This document shows positions 3,401 through 64,000 of a DNA stretch of 64,000 bases, piece after piece. Each line of letters starts with the position of its first letter. Positions within the stretch are counted from its first letter, which is position 1. A program made the position numbers and the translations under genes. The notes below the pieces were generated by a model that ran no database searches, was not told the DNA's origin, and was given only the letters and a program-made list of their open reading frames with translations. Origin of the DNA: Hysterium pulicare CBS 123377. Lineage: Eukaryota; Ascomycota; Dothideomycetes; Hysteriales; Hysteriaceae. The stretch is from assembly GCA_000467715.1 (NCBI GenBank), contig AJFK01000724.1, positions 1 to 64,000 of the forward strand. The letters are read 5' to 3'.

Positions 3401-4222
3401 GCTGGCAATGATTCCGCCATACGACTTCTCCTAGAGCTCGGACTCGGTAATGATGCGAAGACGGACGCATTGCACATTGCCATAGAGAATTGGAATCCGG
3501 CGGTTATATGCGCACTGCTCAAGAATGGACCTCCACTCGACTTGCAACATGGATGGGGAAAATGGGCTTTACAAGAGGCCGCAAAAAGGTATTCTGATGA
3601 CGTTTTGGTAGTGTTGCTTGGCAGAGCAGCAGAAGTTGAGATTGCTATAACGGATATTGAAAGAGTTTGGAAGGACTCTGCAATCTGTAGAGCTGCTGAG
3701 CGGGGCATGGATAGTGTTGTCAAGCTGTTGCTTGAGACAGCTGAATCTCGATGGAAGCTGCTATCACGCGCAGCTAAGAACGGAGATGCGGCTGTAGTTA
3801 TGCTGCTGCGTGAGACAGGTGATTCTGGATGGACGCCGCTATTACGCGCAGCTAACAACGGACATGTAGCTGTAGTTAAGCTGCTGCTTGAGACAGGCAA
3901 GGTTGAAGTTGATATAATGGATTCTGACGGACGGACGCCGCTATTACACGCAGCTAAAAACGGACACGTGGCTGTATTTAAGCTACTGCTTAAGACGGGC
4001 GAGGTTTACGTTGATTCAAAGGATTCTGACGGATGGACGCCACTATCATGGGCAACTTTGGGAGAGCACGAGGCTGTGGTTAAGCTACTACTTGAGACAG
4101 GTGAGGTTGACGTCAATTCAAAGGATGATAAAGAACGGACGGCGCTACTATGGTCAGCGGGGCTCAGGCATATTACTATATACAAGTTACTCAGAGAGGC
4201 CGGCGCAAGACAGAGAGAATAG
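438..4222 (+). CDS. NACHT-ankyrin STAND receptor (NLR1), 7 exons
   Basis: Fungal NOD-like receptor, probably a cytosolic self/non-self or immune sensor. Inferred exons are 438-734, 792-999, 1054-1240, 1297-1460, 1528-1552, 1609-2247 and 2305-4222. They sum to 3438 nt, an exact open frame of 1145 aa. Residues 1-100 form the N-terminal fungal STAND domain, ending in a WGSIRVLLH motif. The NACHT domain starts near residue 280 with Walker A GIPGSGKT (284-291) and has a Walker B-like LFIDGLDEC near residue 401. A winged-helix-like linker follows, and the C-terminal third is ankyrin repeats ending in nearly identical units. Walker A is complete only after splicing the 25-nt fifth exon. Introns 2248-2304 (57 nt), 1553-1608 and 1461-1527 happen to be open in frame, so an unspliced 934-aa frame also exists and would mislead a gene finder. 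The paralogue NLR2 lies inverted 19 kb away. Confidence 0.88.
1528..1552 (+). other. 25-nt micro-exon encoding the Walker A loop of NLR1
   Basis: The upstream exon ends with GGG ATT C at 1460 and the donor reads GTAAGC. The next acceptor, CCCCAG, ends at 1527. The 25 bases to 1552 then give CC GGG TCG GGA AAA ACC ATT CTG GC, and the following exon supplies G. Joined, this reads GIPGSGKTILA, a canonical P-loop. No other combination I tried restores the motif. NLR2 has the same motif without these introns. Confidence 0.85.
3721..4180 (+). repeat. Ankyrin-coding tandem DNA repeats with 102-nt and 78-nt periods
   Basis: The motif GGACGCC(G/A)CTAT recurs at about 3831, 3933 and 4035, exactly 102 nt (34 codons) apart. 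The unit before it is 78 nt (26 codons) and lacks the variable hairpin segment. Neighbouring units are very similar at the DNA level, including silent positions, which points to recent duplication or gene conversion. This matches the fast-evolving repeat ligand domains of fungal NLRs. Confidence 0.85.
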
Positions 4223-20819: not shown

Positions 20820-22471
20820 ATGTCTCGGGTCCTCAGTCGAAGCGCGCTGAAAGCCGCTGGGGTTGAGTATGAGGAGAACGTCGTGCCGGTTGATCTATTC
20901 CTTGAAGAATGTCCTCAGGCTCGAATACTAGTGAGGCATCTTCTCAACTTCAGGAACATAGTTACGATGGAAAACTGGGTAAGGAAATTCTTCAGATTGT
21001 GACAACAAAGCAGGTGCTTTGGCCTGATCATTAATGAGGACAGGCGTACGTAGCCGAGCGAGATAAAAGGAACTTGACAGCAATGGAAACGGAGCGGATT
21101 GTGATAGCCACTCCTGAACCAGGTTCAAACGTTCCACGTTCGCTCAAGAAGAGTTGTAATGATCGCTATGATGTCCGACGTTGCAAAGCCAATTTCGAGA
21201 TAGCCGCAGGCATTCAGAGTAAGGCCAGCGGAATTAGTTCAGAAGACGAGGAGCGCTGGACCGAAGTCATCAAAAACCATGTCTTTCATAGGCTGATGAA
21301 AAAGGCAAGACATCTAGAGAATAAGAAAAGGTATTCTGCTGCGGATGCGTTGGCAAGATTCAGAGTGTATGGAACTTCCCGACCCTGAAGTGGTAACAAA
21401 GTCTAATGCGTAGCATAGAGAAAGTCAACATACGTGGGAATTGGGCAGAAGGATCCTCCAAGCATACTGTCAGCCAACGAAATCAGAATTGACCGCACCT
21501 AAACCTGATCTTTTCCTAAGCTTTCATGCATACGAACTGCATGATGAAAAGAGCGGCCCACTAAGTGCAGATGATTATATACACAGCTTCAGCCTAACCA
21601 AACTCTGCGAGCTTTCCAAAAGCACGAAATGGGACTTCAAGAACTCAAAGAACTCGCCAAGCGCTATCGAAAAAAGGCCAAAGAAGATCAAGGTGAACTG
21701 GGCAACCTGTACAAGCGGTACAAAAAGATTGTCAATCAAAACACATATGGGCAATTCGGTTTCAACCCTAGCCCTTGTAAGGGGTTCCATGATACTTCTT
21801 CCTTCTTCAAAGACCTAACTTGCTTTCCGTGGGCTGTCGTTGAATGGAAGCACCAAGGCAAAGTTGGTACGAGCGACGAGACGAAGTTGTTCTGCCAGGC
21901 TGCTAATGGTGCGGCTGTCTGCTTGACCTTGTTAGCAAATGCTGCTGCGGGAGGCCAGCCAGCACCTATTTTGAGTGATATTCGCCCTGTTGTATGTATG
22001 ACGTTTACTGGGCCTGTGACGCGGGTTTGGATTGCGTACATAACAACCGTTCAAGGGGGTTATTATAGATATGTATGTTCTTCGCTACATGTCTGTTGGT
22101 TCTATGCTTATTCAAGGCAGCGAATGAGTTGTATCTGGAAAGGGAGTTTGAATAACCTCATCGATAACGTGAAACTATGCGTTATAATCGAGAACCTCCA
22201 TTTCTGGGCAATGAACCACCTACGCCCTTGGCTCTTCAGCTGCATTGAACAATGGCGCCGTTCCATCGCAGCGATCGAAAACGCGATCGAAAACGCAAGC
22301 GACGACGCAGGAGATGATGATTCCGACTCCACGGAATCAATCACTAACCTGGACTTTAAGCTTAAGCGGGCGGCCACGATAGATGATTACATAGGCGAAG
22401 ACGACGACGACGATAGTGAATACTATTCTGAGTATCACCAGGAAGAGGACGACGACGACGACGACGACGAC

Positions 22472-22506
<35 letters not shown>

Positions 22507-22600
22507 CGATGACGACGACGACGACGATGAAGATGATAGTGAGGACGAGGGCCGAAAAACTTCCAAGTTCACTGCGGTCTATCGAAGGAAAACAAGGTGA
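20820..22600 (+). CDS. Fungal PD-(D/E)XK nuclease-like protein with poly-Asp tail
   Basis: Belongs to a family of long fungal hypothetical proteins that I recognise by CFPWAVVEWKH (an E-x-K catalytic-like motif), CQAANGAAVCL, RVWIAY and MSCIWKGSL followed by NVKLCVIIENLHFWA. The core looks like the PD-(D/E)XK fold. Inferred introns begin at GTAAGG after NW (near 20977), at GTGTATGG (near 21365), and at 22073-22120 (48 nt, in frame). Between the second and third blocks the frame changes once without a good intron, so the gene may be broken or carry a sequencing error. The C-terminal region holds 27 consecutive Asp codons. It lies between the small kinase and NLR2, as is usual for accessory neighbourhoods. 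Function unknown. Confidence 0.65.
22448..22528 (+). repeat. (GAY)27 trinucleotide microsatellite encoding poly-Asp
   Basis: 81 bases of uninterrupted GAC/GAT codons: a GAC block, a long GAT block, then mixed GAC/GAT. The blocks of identical codons show that the DNA repeat itself has expanded. The antisense strand reads as poly-Ile/Val and is not a gene. Confidence 0.97.
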
Positions 22601-23053: not shown

Positions 23054-26000
23054 CTAGATTCCAGGAGATGGGGGTGGTGCAAATCGCCGTAGCGCATCCT
23101 TGACCATCTCAATGCATTCCCTCACTTTCTCCGACTCTCGAGAGTCTGCTGTCTTCCAAGCATTTACGAGGGCTTCGATGGGCCATCGCCAATCCAACAT
23201 GAGTGCCAGGCTTTGTATACTTCCGAATTTAATGGCGCTTTGTAGCTCTTGTGCTGCGTAGACCGCATCGATATCACCCTGTGCCATATAAAATGGCATC
23301 AAACGTTGTACAGCTTCTACCATGTCATATCTTGCAGCCCAGCGAACGCAGTGTACACCCCGTGTTCTGAACTCCGAAATTGACCACCGCAATCTAGGCT
23401 GTGATAAAAGACAACATATGATGTCTTCTTCGGGGCTATGGGAAGGCTGAAAGCGATGACGTGCATCATTTTCCAAGTCCATCTCTTTGATGGATTCAAA
23501 CGCGATCCCTAGAGCGGTTCTTTCTTTCCGCAGCATGAAGGACAACTCTTTACTTGAAAAATTGACGTCTGCTAATCCATTATGGATAAGAGACTTGACA
23601 AGCGGTGCATTCACACGCTTAGTAGCGTACAGTAGAAGCAGCCCGCATGACTCAGTTATGCCCTCAAACTTGCACCTCAGCCACTCGCAAATCTTTTCGA
23701 CCTTTCTATGAGGAGCACTGCCAAGGCATCTGACTATATTGTCGAAACGTCGGTGACACATTGAGGTTGGTAAGCCCAGCTGATGGAACAAGATCAGTCT
23801 CACAGCTCGGTAGTTCTCGTCTTGTATTGCCTTAGTAAGCCCTAGGGAAACATGATCTTGCAAACGTTCTAGGGGTCTGCAGGACCACCAGTTAATGGTC
23901 AAGATACGGCGTAGGGCGACGTGGTTTTCGTTTGCAACCGCAATTCGCATTGCTTCGGCTAGTATCATATCGTATACCATATCGCTTTCGTCCCATGATC
24001 GGACCACAGAGCAAAGGAATCAAGCATCTTTTCAGACTGACTCGCAACTCTATAGGCCATACTGCCGCTCAGAATCCTTTCTTCGGGGAAGACCGAAAAG
24101 CTTAGGATGAATTCGAAAAATGATTCCTTCAAGCCGATCATTCCCGGAGTCCACTTAGGGAGCACTAGTCGTAAAAAGGAGAGTCCGGTGGAACTAAGCG
24201 CCCAGGTGTACATAGAATGCCAACTGCTTTCCTCGTAGCGCGCAGGATTTGCATTGAGATATGTGTCAGAAGTCCAAGGCCGAAAGTTGAAAATCAGTTG
24301 ACGTTCTAAAGCCAAGTTTCTGAAAGCGGGCCAGCAGGAACAATTTTCTGATAATCGAGACGAGTGCGATGCCCAGTACTCGATTACATATTCTAACAGA
24401 GAGTACTTCTTCTTGAGCAATTCGGTCGGCGGTGATTTGAGAGTCGGAATACTAAATTTGAGTTCTAGGGATGCGCTGCCAGAAGAATCTCCATTCCAGT
24501 TCCCCCGGGGAAGACTTTGCGAATGATAGATGCGAAAGGAATTTGGTTCCAAATGACACGCCTGGCAGTTGTACTGCTAGTAGTCAAAGCCGGCGGTGGC
24601 TTTATCATTTGAGTTTCGAAGTCGGAGAATGACAGATAGGCCACACAAATTTCTCCGATTTCCAAGTCAGCTTCTTCGTAACTGAAATGGGTACTAGAAA
24701 TGGGATACGTGGATTGCCGTGGAGTTGAACACAAGAATTGCTGTACGGTATGATGAGCAAGGCTGACGGTAAGATCCTCTCGATCAAAAATGACTAGATT
24801 TCCACATTGACTAATCAATCGTTCTCCAGAGTTTGTGGCAATTCGCTCAGGGTGGAGAAACTTGTCCGATTTGTTCAAACCGATTGCCTCCTCTAATTCG
24901 TCAATGCGCAGTGGTCGACGCGCACATATTACCCATCGAAAGATCTTCTCGGCCATTTGGTGCTTTATCTCACCACCGGCGCTGTTATATATTTTTGATA
25001 TGATACGAGAGTAAGTCTCCGATAAGTCTCTTGGGAGATTTCGAAGGGTTTGTCGAATTGACTCTTCTGTCAGCGCCTCACCAAGGTCGATGAGTTGGAA
25101 TTTCACCCAGAGAAACCTTTACCACAACTTCATTAGTATGCGCGTGATGAATCAAGGGCGGGGTCATGCTACTTACATATCGTGAGCGCCTTTCACAAGA
25201 GCATCTACAATATCGGTCTCTAAATCAGGATTGTTTGTAATAAGTTCGCGATGCCGGAAGGTAGCTTCGATTGTACCTTGTATGTAAGCGGAGATGTCTT
25301 GGCGAAGGTTGTTCAGAGTCAAGGTAATGGACCGGTACTGTTTGAATGACTCCCTAATAAATGGTTTTTCCCGGCGGCTCGTCACAAAGATTTTGACAGT
25401 ACTCAGCGTTTGCTGTAACATACAGTTCACTAGTCTCAAAACTAAAGTCTGGCCTTCTCGTTTAAGTTCATCTATACCATCCAGGACAAGGAATACTGCG
25501 GTGAATCGAGAAAGAAATTGGGATAGAGCATTTAGAAGTTGGTCCGTCCCGGAACTAGCGACACAGCTGTCGTATAACCGGAAAATATCTTCATCGAAGT
25601 TATCGAGTTGGAATCGAACTAAGACTTGTTTAAGTAGACTGCCTAGAAGATTGTGCGGTTCGAGAGAGGACTGATCTGAGTAATCGCAGTAGTAATAGGC
25701 TAACAGGGAGCTCTGTCCGCTATACGAAGTGCTCAAATCCTCGACTAAGCTTGACGATAGAACCGTTTTCCCGGATCCCGGTATGCCGAAGCAACAGAAA
25801 CAATCAGAACCTTCCGATTGAAGCCAGGACTGGAATCCAAGATCCTGCAGAAGCCAACTGGATGTACCAGGATGGCGAAGGGCGGTGTTTTTCCTATGCC
25901 TGTTTTGGTAATCTACCGTAGAAAGACACGATAGCAGTTGCTCGCGGCGTCGAACCTTTTCATTGCGTTCCTGTAATGCTCGGTTGGCTATTTCAATTTC

Positions 26001-26770
26001 ACGGTTCCGAGCAGACTCGATCATATGAGCAAGACCGGCTTCTTTCTCGACTTCTTTTTGATGTTTTCGGAACTCCGCCATATGATCTTCGAACTGTTGA
26101 CGAAAAGGTTTCCATAGTCCTCTGCAAGCAATCGAAAGGGGAACTGAAATGGTCAACGTCATCTCAGGTTTTGAGGATCGTGTCGAACCTACTCGAAGCA
26201 TTGTTTGCTCGGAGGAACAAAACTTTTGCTCGCGTACAGAATCTAATTATGTCAAGGTATGCCGCAGACAACGTACGAAGGAGGCGTTCGTGGTTTGGGA
26301 ACAGCGCTTGATAAACATGAAACCGTGGGATGGCGTCTCCAATGCGAGCGAACATTTCCACAATTTTCTCTTGATATTTCGAGCTTTCTCTAGCAAACTA
26401 GTGGTCAAAGGGTCAGCAACCGCATGTGACGCAATCAATATTGCAATGACTTAGTGCTCACATGTAGGACAACCCTGATGCTTCCCCACAAAGGACATAA
26501 CAAGAGACTAGAAGCGTTCGCAAATACATCAAGAGCCTTTCCGTAATCTTCAATGGCATCAATAATAGGTGCCATCTTTTCCTGTAGGGCCCACATCCTA
26601 CTTCCTTTTGCATGCACTTTCTGAGCCGCACTGGCAGAGTAAAAGATGTTCTCCAGATTTGCGTAATTGAATCTTTTCGTATCATCCTCAGATAAGTTTT
26701 CGAGGAACCTACGCTTAGCTGCCTCCCATGGCTCTGTGGGGATGGGTAAATCCGTTCTGATCTCGGTCAT
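23054..26770 (-). CDS. NACHT STAND receptor (NLR2), paralogue of NLR1, two frame breaks
   Basis: Likely exons are 26770-26462, 26397-26193, 26143-25177 and 25116 onward; phases agree at each join and mirror the exon borders of NLR1. The N-terminal domain ends LWGSIRVVLH. NACHT has Walker A GIPGSGKTVL and Walker B-like VFLVLDGIDEL. The intron at 25176-25117 restores MFLWVKFQL, as in NLR1. The coding pattern then continues in three successive frames, changing near 24502-24510 (a C5G4 run) and again near 23965-24007. I found no introns with good borders and phases there, so NLR2 is either decaying or affected by sequence errors. The C-terminal region is helical and ankyrin-like but lacks the sharp repeats of NLR1. 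Confidence 0.7.
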
Positions 26771-56059: not shown

Positions 56060-58407
56060 GAGAAGACGTTAGAGGGGCGTTGTTGTGCTTGACAGAAGCT
56101 TTGGAGAACCCTGCCTCGGCATTGCGGCTCGGCCCGACTTGGCTGGTTCGTGGGGTTGTGGGAGCGAAGCTGAACTCCATCTCTCATCTTCAACCTTCAC
56201 CACCTTCGAATCTAGTCGCAAGTCTGGGCTGCTGAGAGCACTCATCTTCTCAATGATTGCACCCGCAACTTGCCGAGTGATGGGCTTTGATCGGCCCCTA
56301 AAATTGAGCCGACATTGATCGCGTGGGGTCGGCACTGTAAGTCCACGTACCTGCAGTATCAGCGTGGGAGGCAGAGATTTCTCTCGAGGTAATTGCTCTT
56401 GCGAGTTGATACATGATGCGATTTGCAGAGCTGCAAGCTGAGAGGTGATGCAAAAGAACCGAAGGTAAGACGGCCGGTCGCGTCTGAATCACCAAATCTC
56501 GGTGGGTAGGATTGTGCGAGCTCTGGGGGTGAACATTTTGGGTTGGATTCACTCGTCTCGACTGCTCGGGAAGGATTTGAGGTGTTTTTGAGTCTGAGCT
56601 GTGACTCCCCATCTTTCACCGCTTCAAACTTAAGCCTTGCGGGCCGGGTAACCTGGGATGACGAGCGACTTTGCCGGAATGGCGAGATCTGTTGTTAAGT
56701 ACTTCTATTAAACCTCAATCTGTGCTCTCTTCAATGTTCCACTCCAGCCAGCCAGACACCAAGTACATAAGCGACGCTTGCGATGATCATGTCGCATACT
56801 GTGCGATTATGCAGGTACACGCATTCCCAGACGAACACGCTTCACAAATAGACGCCGCGGGTTCTCATTGGATCAACTTTCATCCGTTACCCCGTTGTTC
56901 TGTCTGGTGGAGTTTGCTGGACTTGTCTGATAAGGGTTTGCCTTTCCGTCGACGTGGCTAACCATCACGAAGGTAAGACCCCATCGGTATTCTGTACTCA
57001 CGGGCCTATGAACACCCCAGACACCTGGTTCGAAGAGGATCTATTCTGAAGAAAGTCACTGCGGAAAGGATGCCCTGATAAGAGTTGGAGCCTGTGACTG
57101 ACTGGAGTATTCTATATCGCTCAAAATGGGTTCATCAGAGTGCTCGAGTCTCGATTAGTCTACGAGGGGCCCTGGATCCAATCTGCTGCCTTCCAACCGC
57201 CCACGCTCAAAGCTTGCTCCGTTGTTTGCGTAAGGCCATCAGTGTGGATGTACAAGCAATGGAATACGAAGAGAAGGGGGTTTCCCCCAAAAGTGCGATG
57301 TGGTGTTTACTACAAAGGTTTTGCAAAAAGCATCAAACGTAGGGATGCCCAATATGATCGGGTAGAAAGCTTGGCGTAAGTTGGGAAAGTAGAACAGGAT
57401 ATGATTTTAGAGCAGGCTAGTAGGTGAACATATGGCAATTGGGCACATTTGTATATAACAAACGCACCTGAACCTTAGGCATCGATCGCCTGGCGTCTGG
57501 AACATGATGATGGATGGATGGCGTGGCTAGTGTCTCATGCATAGCCACGATTTGTGGCGTTCTTCGTAAGCTCTCTGCGCAATGACAGCTGAAGCTTGTT
57601 GCACGTCAGACAGACCTCGGGAGCTGAGCTCAAGAAACATTTGGGTTTATGACGCCAAAGTACAGGTACTATGATCAGTACCAGTGGAAAGTTCTGTTGC
57701 ATGTTGGCTTGCAGCGATCGGAGATCCTCCATGTGCCGTTACATCAATCTGCCTTTGAGACAGGGACGCGTGAGATGATGGAACCAGTGCGAGTAAAGAC
57801 ACGTCCTGCGATGGCTGCAGCAATAAGTTTTCTTTGCTGCAGTCGGGTGCCAATCGCCATATCCCCAGAAACTTTGCTGCACGGCGATACGCTGCCCGCA
57901 TCGACCTGTTTATGTGAAGCGAGCGTCAATGTCGAGTGACAAAGCGCCACGACGAACCAACCCATTACTCCTCCGCAACTCGCCGGCCATGTCGCGGCCC
58001 TCCACGAATCCAAGTTATCAACGTCTCGTAGTCACGATACAGCTTGCGCGGGCAGTGCAGTGAATGGGCCGGTTTTACCACAGCCTGCTGTTTCCCGTCG
58101 TGCCGCCTGACCATTCCTAAACGTTGTTATGCGCCATTGCAATCATGGTTTGCCTGGCCTTGTCTTAATATTTGCCTCACTGCAGGCTTGCAACCCGATA
58201 ATTTTCCCAGTCTTTGTCCGCTTGGAACTCTAATAAAGTCTTTGTAGTGGAACAAGTGGAGCTGTGCAACGACTCATACAGACTCAATCCTCAATTATCT
58301 CCACTTGCTCACCGCCTTCTATCCAAGTTCCACAAGAGCAGCTAGTTCACGTTCCACAGCACCCATAGGAGCATTGCATCTGCAGCATTCCTAAAAGAAT
58401 AGTCGTC
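56060..58407. other. Large intergenic region, DUG2 and downstream gene promoters
   Basis: About 2.3 kb. On the minus strand, frames at 56069-56619 are open and could be a DUG2 5' leader or a small gene; possible splice sites near 56347 (GTACGT) and 56295 (TTTTAG) do not give a longer protein in any frame. On the plus strand, 56671-57379 and 57649-57939 hold frames without recognisable features. Confidence 0.4.
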
Positions 58408-59712
58408 ATGGTTCATCTCGGAGAGACAGTTACCGTTATCAACAAGTCGGGCAAGGTTGTGAGCAGTGTGAGTAACAAAGGGCAAGGATCGACCGCATGA
58501 GAAGATCGCTGACTTGGTGCCCCAACACAGAGCAAACACCTGGTAAATGTTTTCAAAGAAGCAAGATCCGCCTATCGCGAGCGCAAAGCCGAGATAAAGG
58601 CAGAGCGCAATGCTGCTCTCGACGAGAAAAGGCTGCGAGATGGTGTCAAGACCCTCCGAATCGAAGACGATACTCAGTCCAGAGCTTCCTCCCGAAAGTC
58701 TTCAACACCCCACCGATCGAAATCCTCTCGACATCCCAGGCCGCCAATTGAACGGGGATACACTGATAGCTTCTATGCCAATGATGGAAGTCCTCGACAC
58801 AGTCCCACAAACCGCCGCTTCGACCCTCTCGAGCAGGATTTAGGAGGAGAGGCTCACAGGAGGGAGCTCACGAGGAGACATACAGATGCGAATGAGGTAT
58901 CGAAGCAGAGGGCGGCCCAGTCGCAAACCGAGCCCTACATTGACATGGATCTCGCTTATGGAGAATTGCCCCCACCTTTGCCGATGAGGAAATACGAAGA
59001 TGCAGAGTTAAAGGAGAAAGCATCCAAGTTGACAATGCTTCTGGACGAAGCGAATTGCCTACAACACTCCGTCACAACAATGATCGAGAATCTTCAGAAG
59101 AATCCCGACGCTTTGGCAGCGGTGGCTCTTACCCTCGCTGAGATCAGCAGCATGGTGGGCAAGATGGGACCAGGTATACTGCCAGTCCTGAAAGGGAGCT
59201 TCCCGGCCGTCGTTGCTCTTCTTGCGAGCCCTCAATTTATGATTGCCGCTGGTGTCGGGATTGGCGTCACCATCGTTGCGCTGGGCGGTTTCAAGGTCAT
59301 CAAGAAGATCCAGGCTCAAAAGAAAGAGCAAGAGATGGAGGAACCCTTAGAACCCTTGCAGCTTGATGAGCTGCAGTCTCAAGAACTTAGCAGGATTGAG
59401 CTCTGGCGCCGCGGCATCGCTGAAGCAGAAGCTGGGAGCGGTGGCACAACCGTCGACGGCGAGTTCATTACTCCTGGCGCGTCACGACAGCTAGTCGCCG
59501 CTGGCGTGCTTGATGAAGACGACTTGAAATCCCGGCGTGCCTCCAGGGCAAAAGCAGATGGAGAGCGGAAGTCGAAATCACACAGGGCGAAATCGGTCAA
59601 GAGCACGAAGACGTCTGGGTCACGGAGTAGCAAGACTGCCAAAGACGGCAAGAAGAAGAAGGCAAAAGAACCTTCGGGTTTGAGGATGCTGTTTCGCTCT
59701 CATTCGCAATAA
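58408..59712 (+). CDS. Conserved-type ascomycete protein with a hydrophobic segment, 413 aa
   Basis: Exon 1 (58408-58467) encodes MVHLGETVTVINKSGKVVSS. After a 63-base intron, exon 2 (58531-59712) continues with SKHLVNVFKEARSAYRERKA. The frame is exact. Order: a short ordered N-terminus, a basic Ser/Arg-rich linker, a helical region with DLAYGELPPPLP and NCLQHSVTTMIENLQ, then a hydrophobic Gly-rich stretch near residues 236-273 (AGVGIGVTIVALGG) that could cross or insert into a membrane. A Lys/Ser-rich tail with repeated KS/KT pairs ends it. I recall similar fungal proteins starting GETVTLVNKSGKVVS but no assigned function. Confidence 0.75.
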
Positions 59713-60321
59713 CGGTTTCAAGGAGTACTGTTTCTCATTTTGTCCAGCGTTCTCGCATACGTTCATCCCACACCATCTAGACTACATACATGTCTGGCGG
59801 CGTTATCCTTTTCATTATTAGCTTGCCTATCTCCTCTTAATTTTCAACTGTTATATCACTTGACATCGCAAATACTATATCCATCATAGCATCTACTTAA
59901 AGACATATTCTGCGGTTTCGGAATTGATGACAACAGCCTGTGCACCTCTAGATCATCTCTCATAATTGTCTTCTCCTTGTACATCTACAACTCAGATACT
60001 TTCACTCTTTGCTCAAGTGATTTCGATTCACGTTCCACTGGACCCCTGAGTCAATGCGTCGCATGACGCCCTTCCAATCTCGCAAGATGGTGAAAGGTAC
60101 GCGGATAGGACTAAATGTGATATTCGCTTCGCTATGTTCCGGCATTCACTGCGTCCGGTGGCTGACATTGTCTTCTTTGATTCACCAGCCACCGCATAAC
60201 AATAACCTTAGATAATTCTTTGTCCCTTTCTTTCAACTTCTTCAACCACCTGCGACATACTGAGTGTTACTTCCACCTTACGCTTTACCAAAGACCTTTC
60301 CAACAATTTCAACAGAACAAG
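59713..60321. other. Intergenic
   Basis: About 610 bases before the first tandem-family gene. It ends in a pyrimidine-rich leader followed by CAACAATTTCAACAGAACAAG just before the start codon. Confidence 0.45.
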
Positions 60322-61860
60322 ATGACTCAATCGATTAAGACTACTCACTTGCGGTACAATGAATGCCGACCTTCCACCAAACTAAGAATCGACCACTACG
60401 TAGCCCAAATAGCCGAAAACTGGGAAAAGAAGACCGCACGCGAATGCCTACCCGACAGCATTGTAGAGAGGAAGTACAGCGATAATGGCGCCCTTTTGGA
60501 CGAGAGGGAGGAAGATCCTAGGAACTGGGGACTTGCAATTCTGAGCTCGTTGGCGCGACTCTCTGATCTCACACGAGGGAGGTGGGCCGAAGTAGCCCGC
60601 CATCTCGTAGAGGCAGTCGCTACGAGGGATCAGGAATCGGATAGAGACCATTCGTTCCTGACGAAGAAGGATATGGAGGCTGTCGAGAAGCTGTTTGTTA
60701 CTCCACAGTCTCAGATTACGCGCACGACACGGAGGACCCGCGCCATCACGGCGGAGCCCCGATCTGTTCCCCGATCTGATTCCCAATCCAATGCCTCTTC
60801 ACAAGCGATTTCCCCCTTTGAAGTCCCTTCTAGCCACAAGACCGCACCTCTTTCGCCGGCTCCACAACCCCAGATTACCCGCGCCACGACGGCTGATTCC
60901 CAATCCGATTCCCAATCCGATACCTCGTCACTAGAGATGTCTCCCTCCGAAGTCCCTTCTAACAACGACACCGAACCTCTTTCGCCGACTCCAACCACCC
61001 CACCCCGTTCAGACCGCCACCGCCGCAGTTCTCTCTACGGAACAACCTCCCAAATCCTAAACGAGTCATTCGAGAGACGAAACGAAGTCCCCCCTCCCAC
61101 ATCTCGAAAACGAAAGGCCTTTACCGCCTCTGAGAACGAGTCTGCCGGGAAATCTGCCTTCCAGAGCCAGATCCGGCGGGAGACGAACGCCTATCCTGAA
61201 TGGGTCAATTTGAAAAAGAGAAAAGAACCTGTTGCAAAACCTACCGCCCCACCTCAAGATCCTAATTCTCAGCATAGAACTAATCGAATCCGGACGCTTG
61301 GGTACGGGGGTGAGGAGTCGGAGTCGGAGGAGGTTGATGTTACTTTGGAGCGTGTGAGGGCGCCGATGAGGCTGGATCGTGAAATTATACATGTTTTGCC
61401 TCCTCGTGGTTCCCGTGGTCGGAAAGTCGGAGGTGGAATCGCTCGAATACGAAGATCTAGGACTCATTCTCCCGCCGCTACTGCGTCCAGGAATTACGAT
61501 GGTGAAGACGATCCAAATGCTCATTCCTCTCCCACCGAACCGCATTCGCCCACCAACAACCAACAACACCGTCATCACAGCCACCAAGAGCGCCAATACT
61601 CCCCTGATACTGAAAGCCTCGCCACTCTATCCCTAGAACCCGCATCTCTCGTTGTCCCTCGTCTTCCTCGTCCCGCTCCGGCCCAAGATACGGTCGAAGA
61701 TATCCCGATTCTGGAACTGGAGTTGGAGCAAGAGGAGGCTGGTATGAGGTATGAAAGAGCAAATGTGAGGCAGGAACGGGCGAATATGAGACATGAGGAT
61801 TATAGGAGGAATGTGTTGTCGCTTAGGATTCGGTTGCATCGCTTGAGAAGGCTGCGCTGA
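60322..61860 (+). CDS. Tandem orphan family, member 1 (512 aa)
   Basis: Intronless gene of a family I do not recognise. The N-terminal domain (about residues 20-130) holds HYVAQIAENW, then CLPDSIVERKY, then DPRNWGLAILSSLARLSDLT. The same pattern with different residues is in the two genes downstream. The middle is disordered, rich in Ser, Pro, Thr and Arg, and contains an internal duplication of about 45 residues (compare SQSNASSQAISPFEVPSSH with SQSDTSSLEMSPSEVPSNN). The C-terminus is a charged helix with a repeat of RYERANVRQERANMR that ends LSLRIRLHRLRRLR. The start at 60322 was chosen as the first ATG; an upstream TTG-initiated extension has no support. A SRKRKAF basic patch could be a nuclear signal. 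Confidence 0.72.
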   Translation: MTQSIKTTHLRYNECRPSTKLRIDHYVAQIAENWEKKTARECLPDSIVERKYSDNGALLDEREEDPRNWGLAILSSLARLSDLTRGRWAEVARHLVEAVATRDQESDRDHSFLTKKDMEAVEKLFVTPQSQITRTTRRTRAITAEPRSVPRSDSQSNASSQAISPFEVPSSHKTAPLSPAPQPQITRATTADSQSDSQSDTSSLEMSPSEVPSNNDTEPLSPTPTTPPRSDRHRRSSLYGTTSQILNESFERRNEVPPPTSRKRKAFTASENESAGKSAFQSQIRRETNAYPEWVNLKKRKEPVAKPTAPPQDPNSQHRTNRIRTLGYGGEESESEEVDVTLERVRAPMRLDREIIHVLPPRGSRGRKVGGGIARIRRSRTHSPAATASRNYDGEDDPNAHSSPTEPHSPTNNQQHRHHSHQERQYSPDTESLATLSLEPASLVVPRLPRPAPAQDTVEDIPILELELEQEEAGMRYERANVRQERANMRHEDYRRNVLSLRIRLHRLRRLR

Positions 61861-62543
61861 ATTTGGGGAGAGGCGAGAAAAGGAGGTGGGGTCTTTATGA
61901 TCATGTTGGGAGGAGGGTGTTAGAGGGGGCCTCGTTGGTTGTATGTGAATTTTTAGTTACTAATAGTACTGTTCTCTAGAGATCTTCTACTAGAAGTTTA
62001 GGTATGTATAGATTGTGGGTGCTTTTCTAGATTATCTCCTTTAATATATATCTTATTCATGTGTCTCTATATCTTCATTTCTAACCTTAATATGAGCTCT
62101 AAAGTAAATTTTTTCTCGGTCATGGGGGATCAAGAGTAGTGGCTATGGTACTTTCCAGTTCGGCTCAAAGATGGCAACTTACTTTCACCCCTTTCCCATA
62201 GCCTGATTGATGTATGCAGACGAATGGGAACGAACATTAGGGAGGCTTGTATAGTCTCAGAACAGCCAAAGCACAATTACTATCTTACCTCGCATAGTGA
62301 ATAGTGGGTTCTATCAGTACAAGGCTCGAAACCTCACCACAATTTGCCCCCTTCCCTCTTCACTACTTATTGTCCAATTGTATTATTCTACGGCTTATGT
62401 CACAGCTTCGTCAACCAGCCGCTTCCTGGCAACAGCTGTTACCATAATTTCTCTCTCTTGTTCTTCCACTACTGGAACCGTCACATTCCACAACAAGATC
62501 CTCAACATCGGTTCTCATTCACACACGACTTACCACAATCATT
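61861..62543. other. Spacer between tandem family members 1 and 2
   Basis: About 680 bases. The first part holds a TCTAGA-rich, AT-rich segment (61970-62050). A similar TCTAGA/TTCTAG-rich segment follows member 2 near 63420-63490. No gene is seen. Confidence 0.45.
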
Positions 62544-63315
62544 ATGGCCGCAGAACGAGATCGCTTGATCCAGACGATCATACAGAACTGGAACCTCACT
62601 GCCGCCTCCGAGTCGATACCCGATGAGCTTCTCCCGAGACGAGACCAAGCGAGGCCTCTCTAGACAACCTCAAAATGACGCCCAACAATGGGACCTCTCC
62701 ATGCTCCAAGAGCTCGTTACACTGTCTGGCTTGATGCAAGGAGATATTGATGCTGTACATCAGCAGCTGAGGGAGGTCGTAGCCGAACGTCGCCAGCGAA
62801 ACGCCGCAACAGCTGATCCTTACCTCACGCTTGCCGACATCCAAAATACAATCAGCTATTTTCGAGACACGATGACTTCCATGGCATTGGCAGAAGTTCA
62901 CGCCGATGTCACTACCAGTTCTCCATCCGAAGCGTCTACTACGAGCACCGGCACCCATGTAACTGTCCTTGCAGGTAGAGGTCAAAAACACTTGCGAAAC
63001 TCATTCAATGCCCGCCCCAATGTCGATCTCACTCTACCATCCCAGAACAATTCAACTAATCAGAATCCTAATCGAGTCCCTTCGCCAATTCTACGGTGGG
63101 AGCGGGAGAGGGACGAGGCTTCAGCAGATCAGTATGACGCTCTTGCTGCTGCTCATATGGAAGACGCTAGAGCTTATGAGGCAGAAGCCGAAGTACACAG
63201 AATACAGGCCGCAGTTTATAGGGCACGGGCGAAACGAAGAGCACCTAGAATAGCGGATCTTCGAATGCGTATAGAGAGGTTGGAGAGGATAGAGCGGGAG
63301 CAGAATGGGGATTGA
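62544..63315 (+). CDS. Tandem orphan family, member 2 (frame break near the start)
   Basis: Paralogue of member 1. From ATG 62544 the frame reads RLIQTIIQNWN, then SIPDELLPRR, and stops at 62661. The next frame, open from ATG 62623, carries NDAQQWDLSMLQELVTLSGL and continues to 63315. Comparison with members 1 and 3 shows that both parts belong to one domain, and no intron fits, so a small indel lies between about 62625 and 62660. The gene may be broken, mis-sequenced, or restarted at 62623 as a 230-aa protein without the first helix. The C-terminus, HMEDARAYEAEAEVHRIQAA then LRMRIERLERIEREQ, matches the architecture of member 1. Confidence 0.6.
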
Positions 63316-63804
63316 TATCCATGTACATATGACTGTTTATGAGGCGTACCTTAGACGTTTATTCTCTGGGAAGGGAGAATAAAGCCGGTGAGCATGTTGT
63401 GAGCTAATAAAGGTTGTTGTTTTCTAGAAGTCTAGAGTAAGATAGTCTATAAAAGTTCTAATAATCTTATTTTATTTTAGAAGATTAGTGGGTAACACTA
63501 CTTCACATATCCCTTCACCTTACTAGTCCGATAATCTCGTGACCGCTACGTCACTTATCATACCCTACTTCATTCACTTTTCACTGTTTACTGTTTTGTC
63601 TCGCTCGTCACCGTCTTACCCCTCACTGCCGCCTAGCAACTACGTGTTATGATACAAATTTTCTTCTCTTCTATTCTCTTCTTCTTTTTCCTCTACAACA
63701 ATCTTCTCACCCACAACAAATCAGCTTTTCTACATTCAAATTGCAGCTTCCGACTGCCATAATTTATAGCTACTTCTCTGTTTGATACCAACGCCATCGA
63801 AGTC
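63316..63804. other. Spacer between tandem family members 2 and 3
   Basis: About 490 bases. The first part is AT-rich with repeated TCTAGA-like words (63420-63490). The second part is a pyrimidine-rich leader ahead of member 3. Confidence 0.45.
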
Positions 63805-64000
63805 ATGATGACTAAAGCTACGCTGATTGCTCAGATCAAATCAGACTGGAGCATCCCTTCTGTCGCTCAGTCCATCCCTGAAGATCTCCGCCCTAGGAGA
63901 GGCACGCGTACCAGACCCTCACAAAGAGCTCAAAACAACCCGCAGCAATGGCTCCTTCCGTTCCTCCAAGCTCTCGCGAATTTGTCGCGAATCACACAAA
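63805..64000 (+). CDS. Tandem orphan family, member 3 (cut by the window end)
   Basis: From ATG 63805 the frame is open to the window edge and encodes 65 residues: LIAQIKSDWSIPSVAQSIPE, then LRPRRG, then NNPQQWLLPFLQALANLSRI. It aligns throughout with the N-terminal domain of members 1 and 2, sharing the (N/D)W, (S)(I/L)P(D/E) and QQW/RNW positions. The rest lies outside the window. Confidence 0.65.
   Translation, partial: MMTKATLIAQIKSDWSIPSVAQSIPEDLRPRRGTRTRPSQRAQNNPQQWLLPFLQALANLSRITQ

Follow-up and report, generated by a model that had tools for sequence, protein, structure and literature searches.

A small tandem family of diverged, probably lineage-restricted orphan-type genes in Hysterium pulicare CBS 123377

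The stretch of Hysterium pulicare DNA analysed here (64,000 nucleotides; the window) ends in an array of three head-to-tail gene copies on the + strand (60322–61860, 62544–63315, and 63805–64000) that share an N-terminal region of approximately 95 amino acids. Judged from sequence, it is on balance likely that these are a small tandem family of orphan-type genes, probably lineage-restricted, that arose by head-to-tail duplication and has diverged strongly, with one copy apparently decaying. The features of the array are:

60322–61860, + strand: copy 1, a single open frame of 512 amino acids (pI 9.3) with the N-terminal domain, a low-complexity middle, and a charged tail
60373–60711, + strand: shared N-terminal domain of copy 1, predicted to be mostly helical (shuffle tests and structure models)
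60764–60993, + strand: internal repeat of copy 1, situated in its Ser/Pro middle and made up of a pair of 101-nt units that are 81% identical and lie 129 nt apart from start to start
61740–61857, + strand: charged Arg/Glu/Leu tail of copy 1, compared with that of copy 2 by shuffling
62544–62660, + strand: first piece of copy 2, 39 amino acids with the NW and SIPDELLPRR motifs, ended by a stop in its own frame
62623–63315, + strand: second piece of copy 2, an open reading frame (ORF) in a different frame with the remainder of the domain (QQWxL...LS onward), a short middle, and a charged tail
63805–64000, + strand: copy 3, first 65 amino acids, its domain cut by the window end

The domains were compared in five pairings (copy 1 with copy 3, and copies 1 and 3 each with both pieces of copy 2). 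In five of five, no shuffled sequence among 1000 equalled or exceeded the observed BLOSUM62 local score; identical residues per aligned pair of domain pieces numbered 9 of 28, 19 of 57, 15 of 58, 13 of 31, and 12 of 26. On these alignment scores the N-terminal domains of the three copies are homologous. The first-pass annotation had described a head-to-tail array of three genes with a common N-terminal domain, and this description is upheld; similarity no better than that of shuffled sequences, which it had named as grounds for abandoning the idea, did not occur in this domain. Two motifs taken from it and slightly loosened were searched for in all 1590 six-frame, stop-to-stop segments that have 25 amino acids or more and matched only the three array copies, the patterns having been derived from those same copies. 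Profile searches found no further copy in the 64-kb window; their matches to the three array copies are circular, and only the absence of others is informative.

Copy 2 as sequenced contains a frame break. For each half of its domain, all three frames were compared with copies 1 and 3. A single frame in each half outscored every one of 1000 shuffles in both comparisons; in the other eight comparisons, 48 to 998 of 1000 shuffles did at least as well. Because the domain is split between frames, copy 2 is not a complete gene, and the earlier count of two complete members has to be given up. The break could be a sequencing error. A reading in which copy 2 is intact, the frame change being due to sequencing or assembly error, bridged by an intron, or a programmed frameshift, is possible, if somewhat on the unlikely side. 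The second frame is open over 248 codons and domain residues are retained in both halves, so that the break, if it is real, is a recent one; an intron across the frame change, sought by eye, would however delete the SIPDELLPRR motif, which all three copies keep.

Beyond the domain, similarity between copies 1 and 2 is harder to trace. Their middles show no alignment better than that of shuffles (165 of 1000 score as well), contrary to the shared disordered Ser/Pro middle proposed in the first-pass annotation. For the tails the alignment score is 41, where shuffles average 34.3 and 146 of 1000 gapped shuffles do as well. The 11-residue tail pair singled out in that annotation, which was picked by eye and post hoc, has a score of 33, a value that 28 of 2000 ungapped shuffles attain. 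Helical periodicity of the tails (3.4–3.75 residues) is not above that of shuffles (1443 and 1286 of 2000). From these comparisons it is possible that the tails of copies 1 and 2 are related, and the shared C-terminal design that had been claimed for them is at best suggestive.

Copy 1 has a whole-frame codon score of 0.108 (training set: 13 further ORFs in the 64-kb window), the best of its six frames by a small margin and at the low edge of the other window genes. The score is also highest in the expected frame for the domain pieces, again by a small margin. It does not favour the frame of the copy 1 tail taken alone, and for copy 1 its synonymous component is not highest in frame (0.018, against 0.070 in another frame). 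Basic clusters occur in copy 1 at residues 262 (RKRK), 298 (KKRK), and 377 (RRSR); the second piece of copy 2 has a pI of 6.1, with basic clusters only at 56 (RRQR) and 204 (KRR). S/T-P motifs are not enriched in the middle of copy 1 (as many in 1363 of 5000 shuffles), and no signal peptide was apparent by eye. For the internal repeat of copy 1, dN is 0.24 and dS is 0.17 over a small sample of 33 codons, figures that are consistent with a weakly constrained linker.

Database searches support the reading of the whole array, from its sequence, as a duplicated family with no recognised function, as the first-pass annotation had it: no Pfam or NCBIfam match lies above the curated cut-off. The array proteins have no match in either collection up to E 1, and Pfam up to E 10, where HMMER filters drop most weak matches, gave only sub-cut-off matches to TPR_7, Dysbindin, Imm49, PRODH, and a KH domain. 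Sequence searches of the PDB gave best E-values of 0.12, 0.63, and 0.22, all to unrelated molecules. No array relative was found in viral, prokaryote, or plasmid (tblastn) collections, which are not expected to contain fungal genes; the viral and prokaryote scans detect close relatives only. Word searches of the literature found no published account of the family, which could well be present in fungal sequence databases among the hypothetical proteins.

An array derived from a transposable element, either gag-like or a captured ORF, could also account for copies in tandem with charged tails and middles of low complexity. Apart from the copy 1 internal repeat, however, repeats in 58000–64000 are only 16–27 nt long with 70–89% matches, and Pfam found no transposon domain in the array proteins. 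On the short repeats and the absent domains, within the data of the window, a transposon origin was rejected, and we regard it as very improbable.

Structure prediction indicates that the domain is probably a mostly helical bundle, with moderate confidence. The best model of copy 1 residues 18–131, from a four-row alignment, has a pLDDT of 73.7 and a pTM of 0.65 and stands apart from the other four models of this domain (pLDDT 58.3–47.7); an earlier model of a longer copy 1 stretch has a pLDDT of 56.2. Both predictions are mostly helical, the second with two two-residue bridges in a low-confidence loop. Foldseek returned 36 PDB matches at E up to 10 (best 2.1; none at or below 0.001), and a viral fold library gave nine matches with a best E-value of 2.8.

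The AAA+ C-terminal lid and the histone-fold bundle resemble each other, and the array domain might be a distant relative of one or the other, its proteins acting as partners of AAA+ ATPases or chromatin. The lid is likewise a small helical bundle and recurs among the weak Foldseek matches: 32 of the 36 PDB titles name assemblies with AAA+ ATPases (such as the proteasome, p97, Drg1, and RuvBL), in which the matched chain is presumably the ATPase. The LTxxDxxxxxxxF end of the domain also resembles the ends of lids and histone folds. The best Foldseek E-value of 2.1 nevertheless speaks against such a relationship, as does the absence of any lid family (such as AAA_lid_3) among the Pfam matches up to E 10. 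An hhalign comparison of the second half of the domain with 37 FtsH lid-region sequences gave a probability of 0.29 on a scale of 100 over 18 columns, out of the expected register, and 36 of 200 column shuffles scored as high (FtsH lids only). Unlike AAA+ proteins, the array proteins are without an ATPase core, and the likeness is without sequence or profile support. AAA+ lid homology was rejected on the hhalign score, which is not above that of column shuffles, and on the wrong register; we consider the lid or histone-fold reading very improbable.

How the copies diverged is partly reflected in their codons. In the five domain alignments, pooled although non-independent, identity at codon positions 1, 2, and 3 is 97, 119, and 63 of 200 aligned codons. 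The lower identity at position 3 than at the first two shows the domain to be under protein-level constraint. Third positions (63 of 200) are near random, which would fit old or fast divergence equally; these figures thus do not single out the fast divergence proposed in the first-pass annotation. Repeat-induced point mutation (RIP) was rejected as the main cause of the divergence, although one 500-nt stretch (60251–60750), which spans the beginning of copy 1, passes both RIP thresholds, as do 13 of the 255 window stretches in all. None of the three array coding parts passes both, but copy 1 is past the threshold for the substrate index (1.01). Unlike the coding parts, the spacer that separates copy 2 from copy 3 (63316–63804) has RIP-like indices of 1.28 and 0.84.

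Tandem orphan genes are familiar from Neurospora crassa, where, in one survey, adjacent genes make up 82 of 250 orphan paralogue pairs and 73 of these 82 are head-to-tail, tandem pairs have a mean identity of 36.1% with no RIP traces, 6.1% of orphans carry a functional annotation, and orphans are enriched near telomeres (PMC2684829). As far as the window allows a comparison, the array fits the N. crassa pattern in adjacency, in orientation (all three copies follow one another on the + strand), and in the strong divergence of neighbours, with the domain identities given above and no alignment of the copies outside the domain; it differs in showing three copies in view, one of them frame-broken (PMC2684829). 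The window holds one 12-base match to telomere repeats with one mismatch, as do 15 of 100 shuffles, and no repeat array. In Neurospora, lineage-specific genes are described as clustering with HET-domain genes (PMC10684091). The array genes likewise look lineage-restricted, and the window also has two STAND-type genes; in contrast to the clusters as described there, no HET domain occurs in the 20 ORFs scanned, a selection of those in the window. Between the array and the nearer STAND-type gene lie 34 kb.

The 20 scanned ORFs include ones with Fungal_trans, ERT1/acuK PAS, and NPHP3_N/NACHT domains with or without ankyrin repeats, as well as an M20 peptidase next to WD40 repeats. Such a set of fungal domains by itself points to a filamentous ascomycete as the most likely source. 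Both STAND-type genes are of the NPHP3_N/NACHT kind. In the one with ankyrin repeats, the repeats at 3715–4126 are alike in DNA (78- and 102-nt units with 79–85% matches), which suggests recent repeat turnover. The second (23054–26246, - strand) is spread across several frames, through introns or decay, and three overlapping 500-nt stretches at 25001–26000 within it pass the RIP thresholds. A GAC/GAT run at 22448–22536 encodes poly-Asp near the end of an ORF (21575–22600) with no Pfam match above cut-off. Directly upstream of the array lies an ORF with a Lys/Ser-rich tail (58513–59712); its frame was unmatched in the array profile searches, and its part 58945–59712 has only a sub-cut-off Pfam match, to Tti2 (E 0.053). 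ARAGORN found no tRNA in the window, and Rfam gave no match at gathering score.

We therefore return to the small, diverged tandem family as the preferred reading. Head-to-tail duplication in this filamentous ascomycete would have produced the array, after which the copies would have diverged strongly and copy 2 apparently begun to decay. The N-terminal domain may serve as a small helical bundle for protein-protein binding and the middle as a disordered linker that is free to change; selection would hold the Trp, Leu, and Pro residues of the core in place and let the linkers drift. Copy 1, with its basic clusters and its charged tail, may be an intracellular, perhaps nuclear, adaptor, and a role as a scaffold or nucleic-acid adaptor, which the first-pass annotation had proposed from the layout, is conceivable. 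There is only a slim chance of something larger, in which the three genes would be intracellular adaptors of a new fungal family and their shared domain an AAA-lid-like or histone-fold-like bundle. The array would then be a cluster for self-recognition or chromatin conflict that diversifies under selection and has further copies outside the window.

As it stands, the array adds one more diverged tandem family, its function assigned by inference only, to a kind already described. If the domain is restricted to one fungal lineage and present there in many copies, it would offer a clean case for measuring the birth and decay of orphan families.
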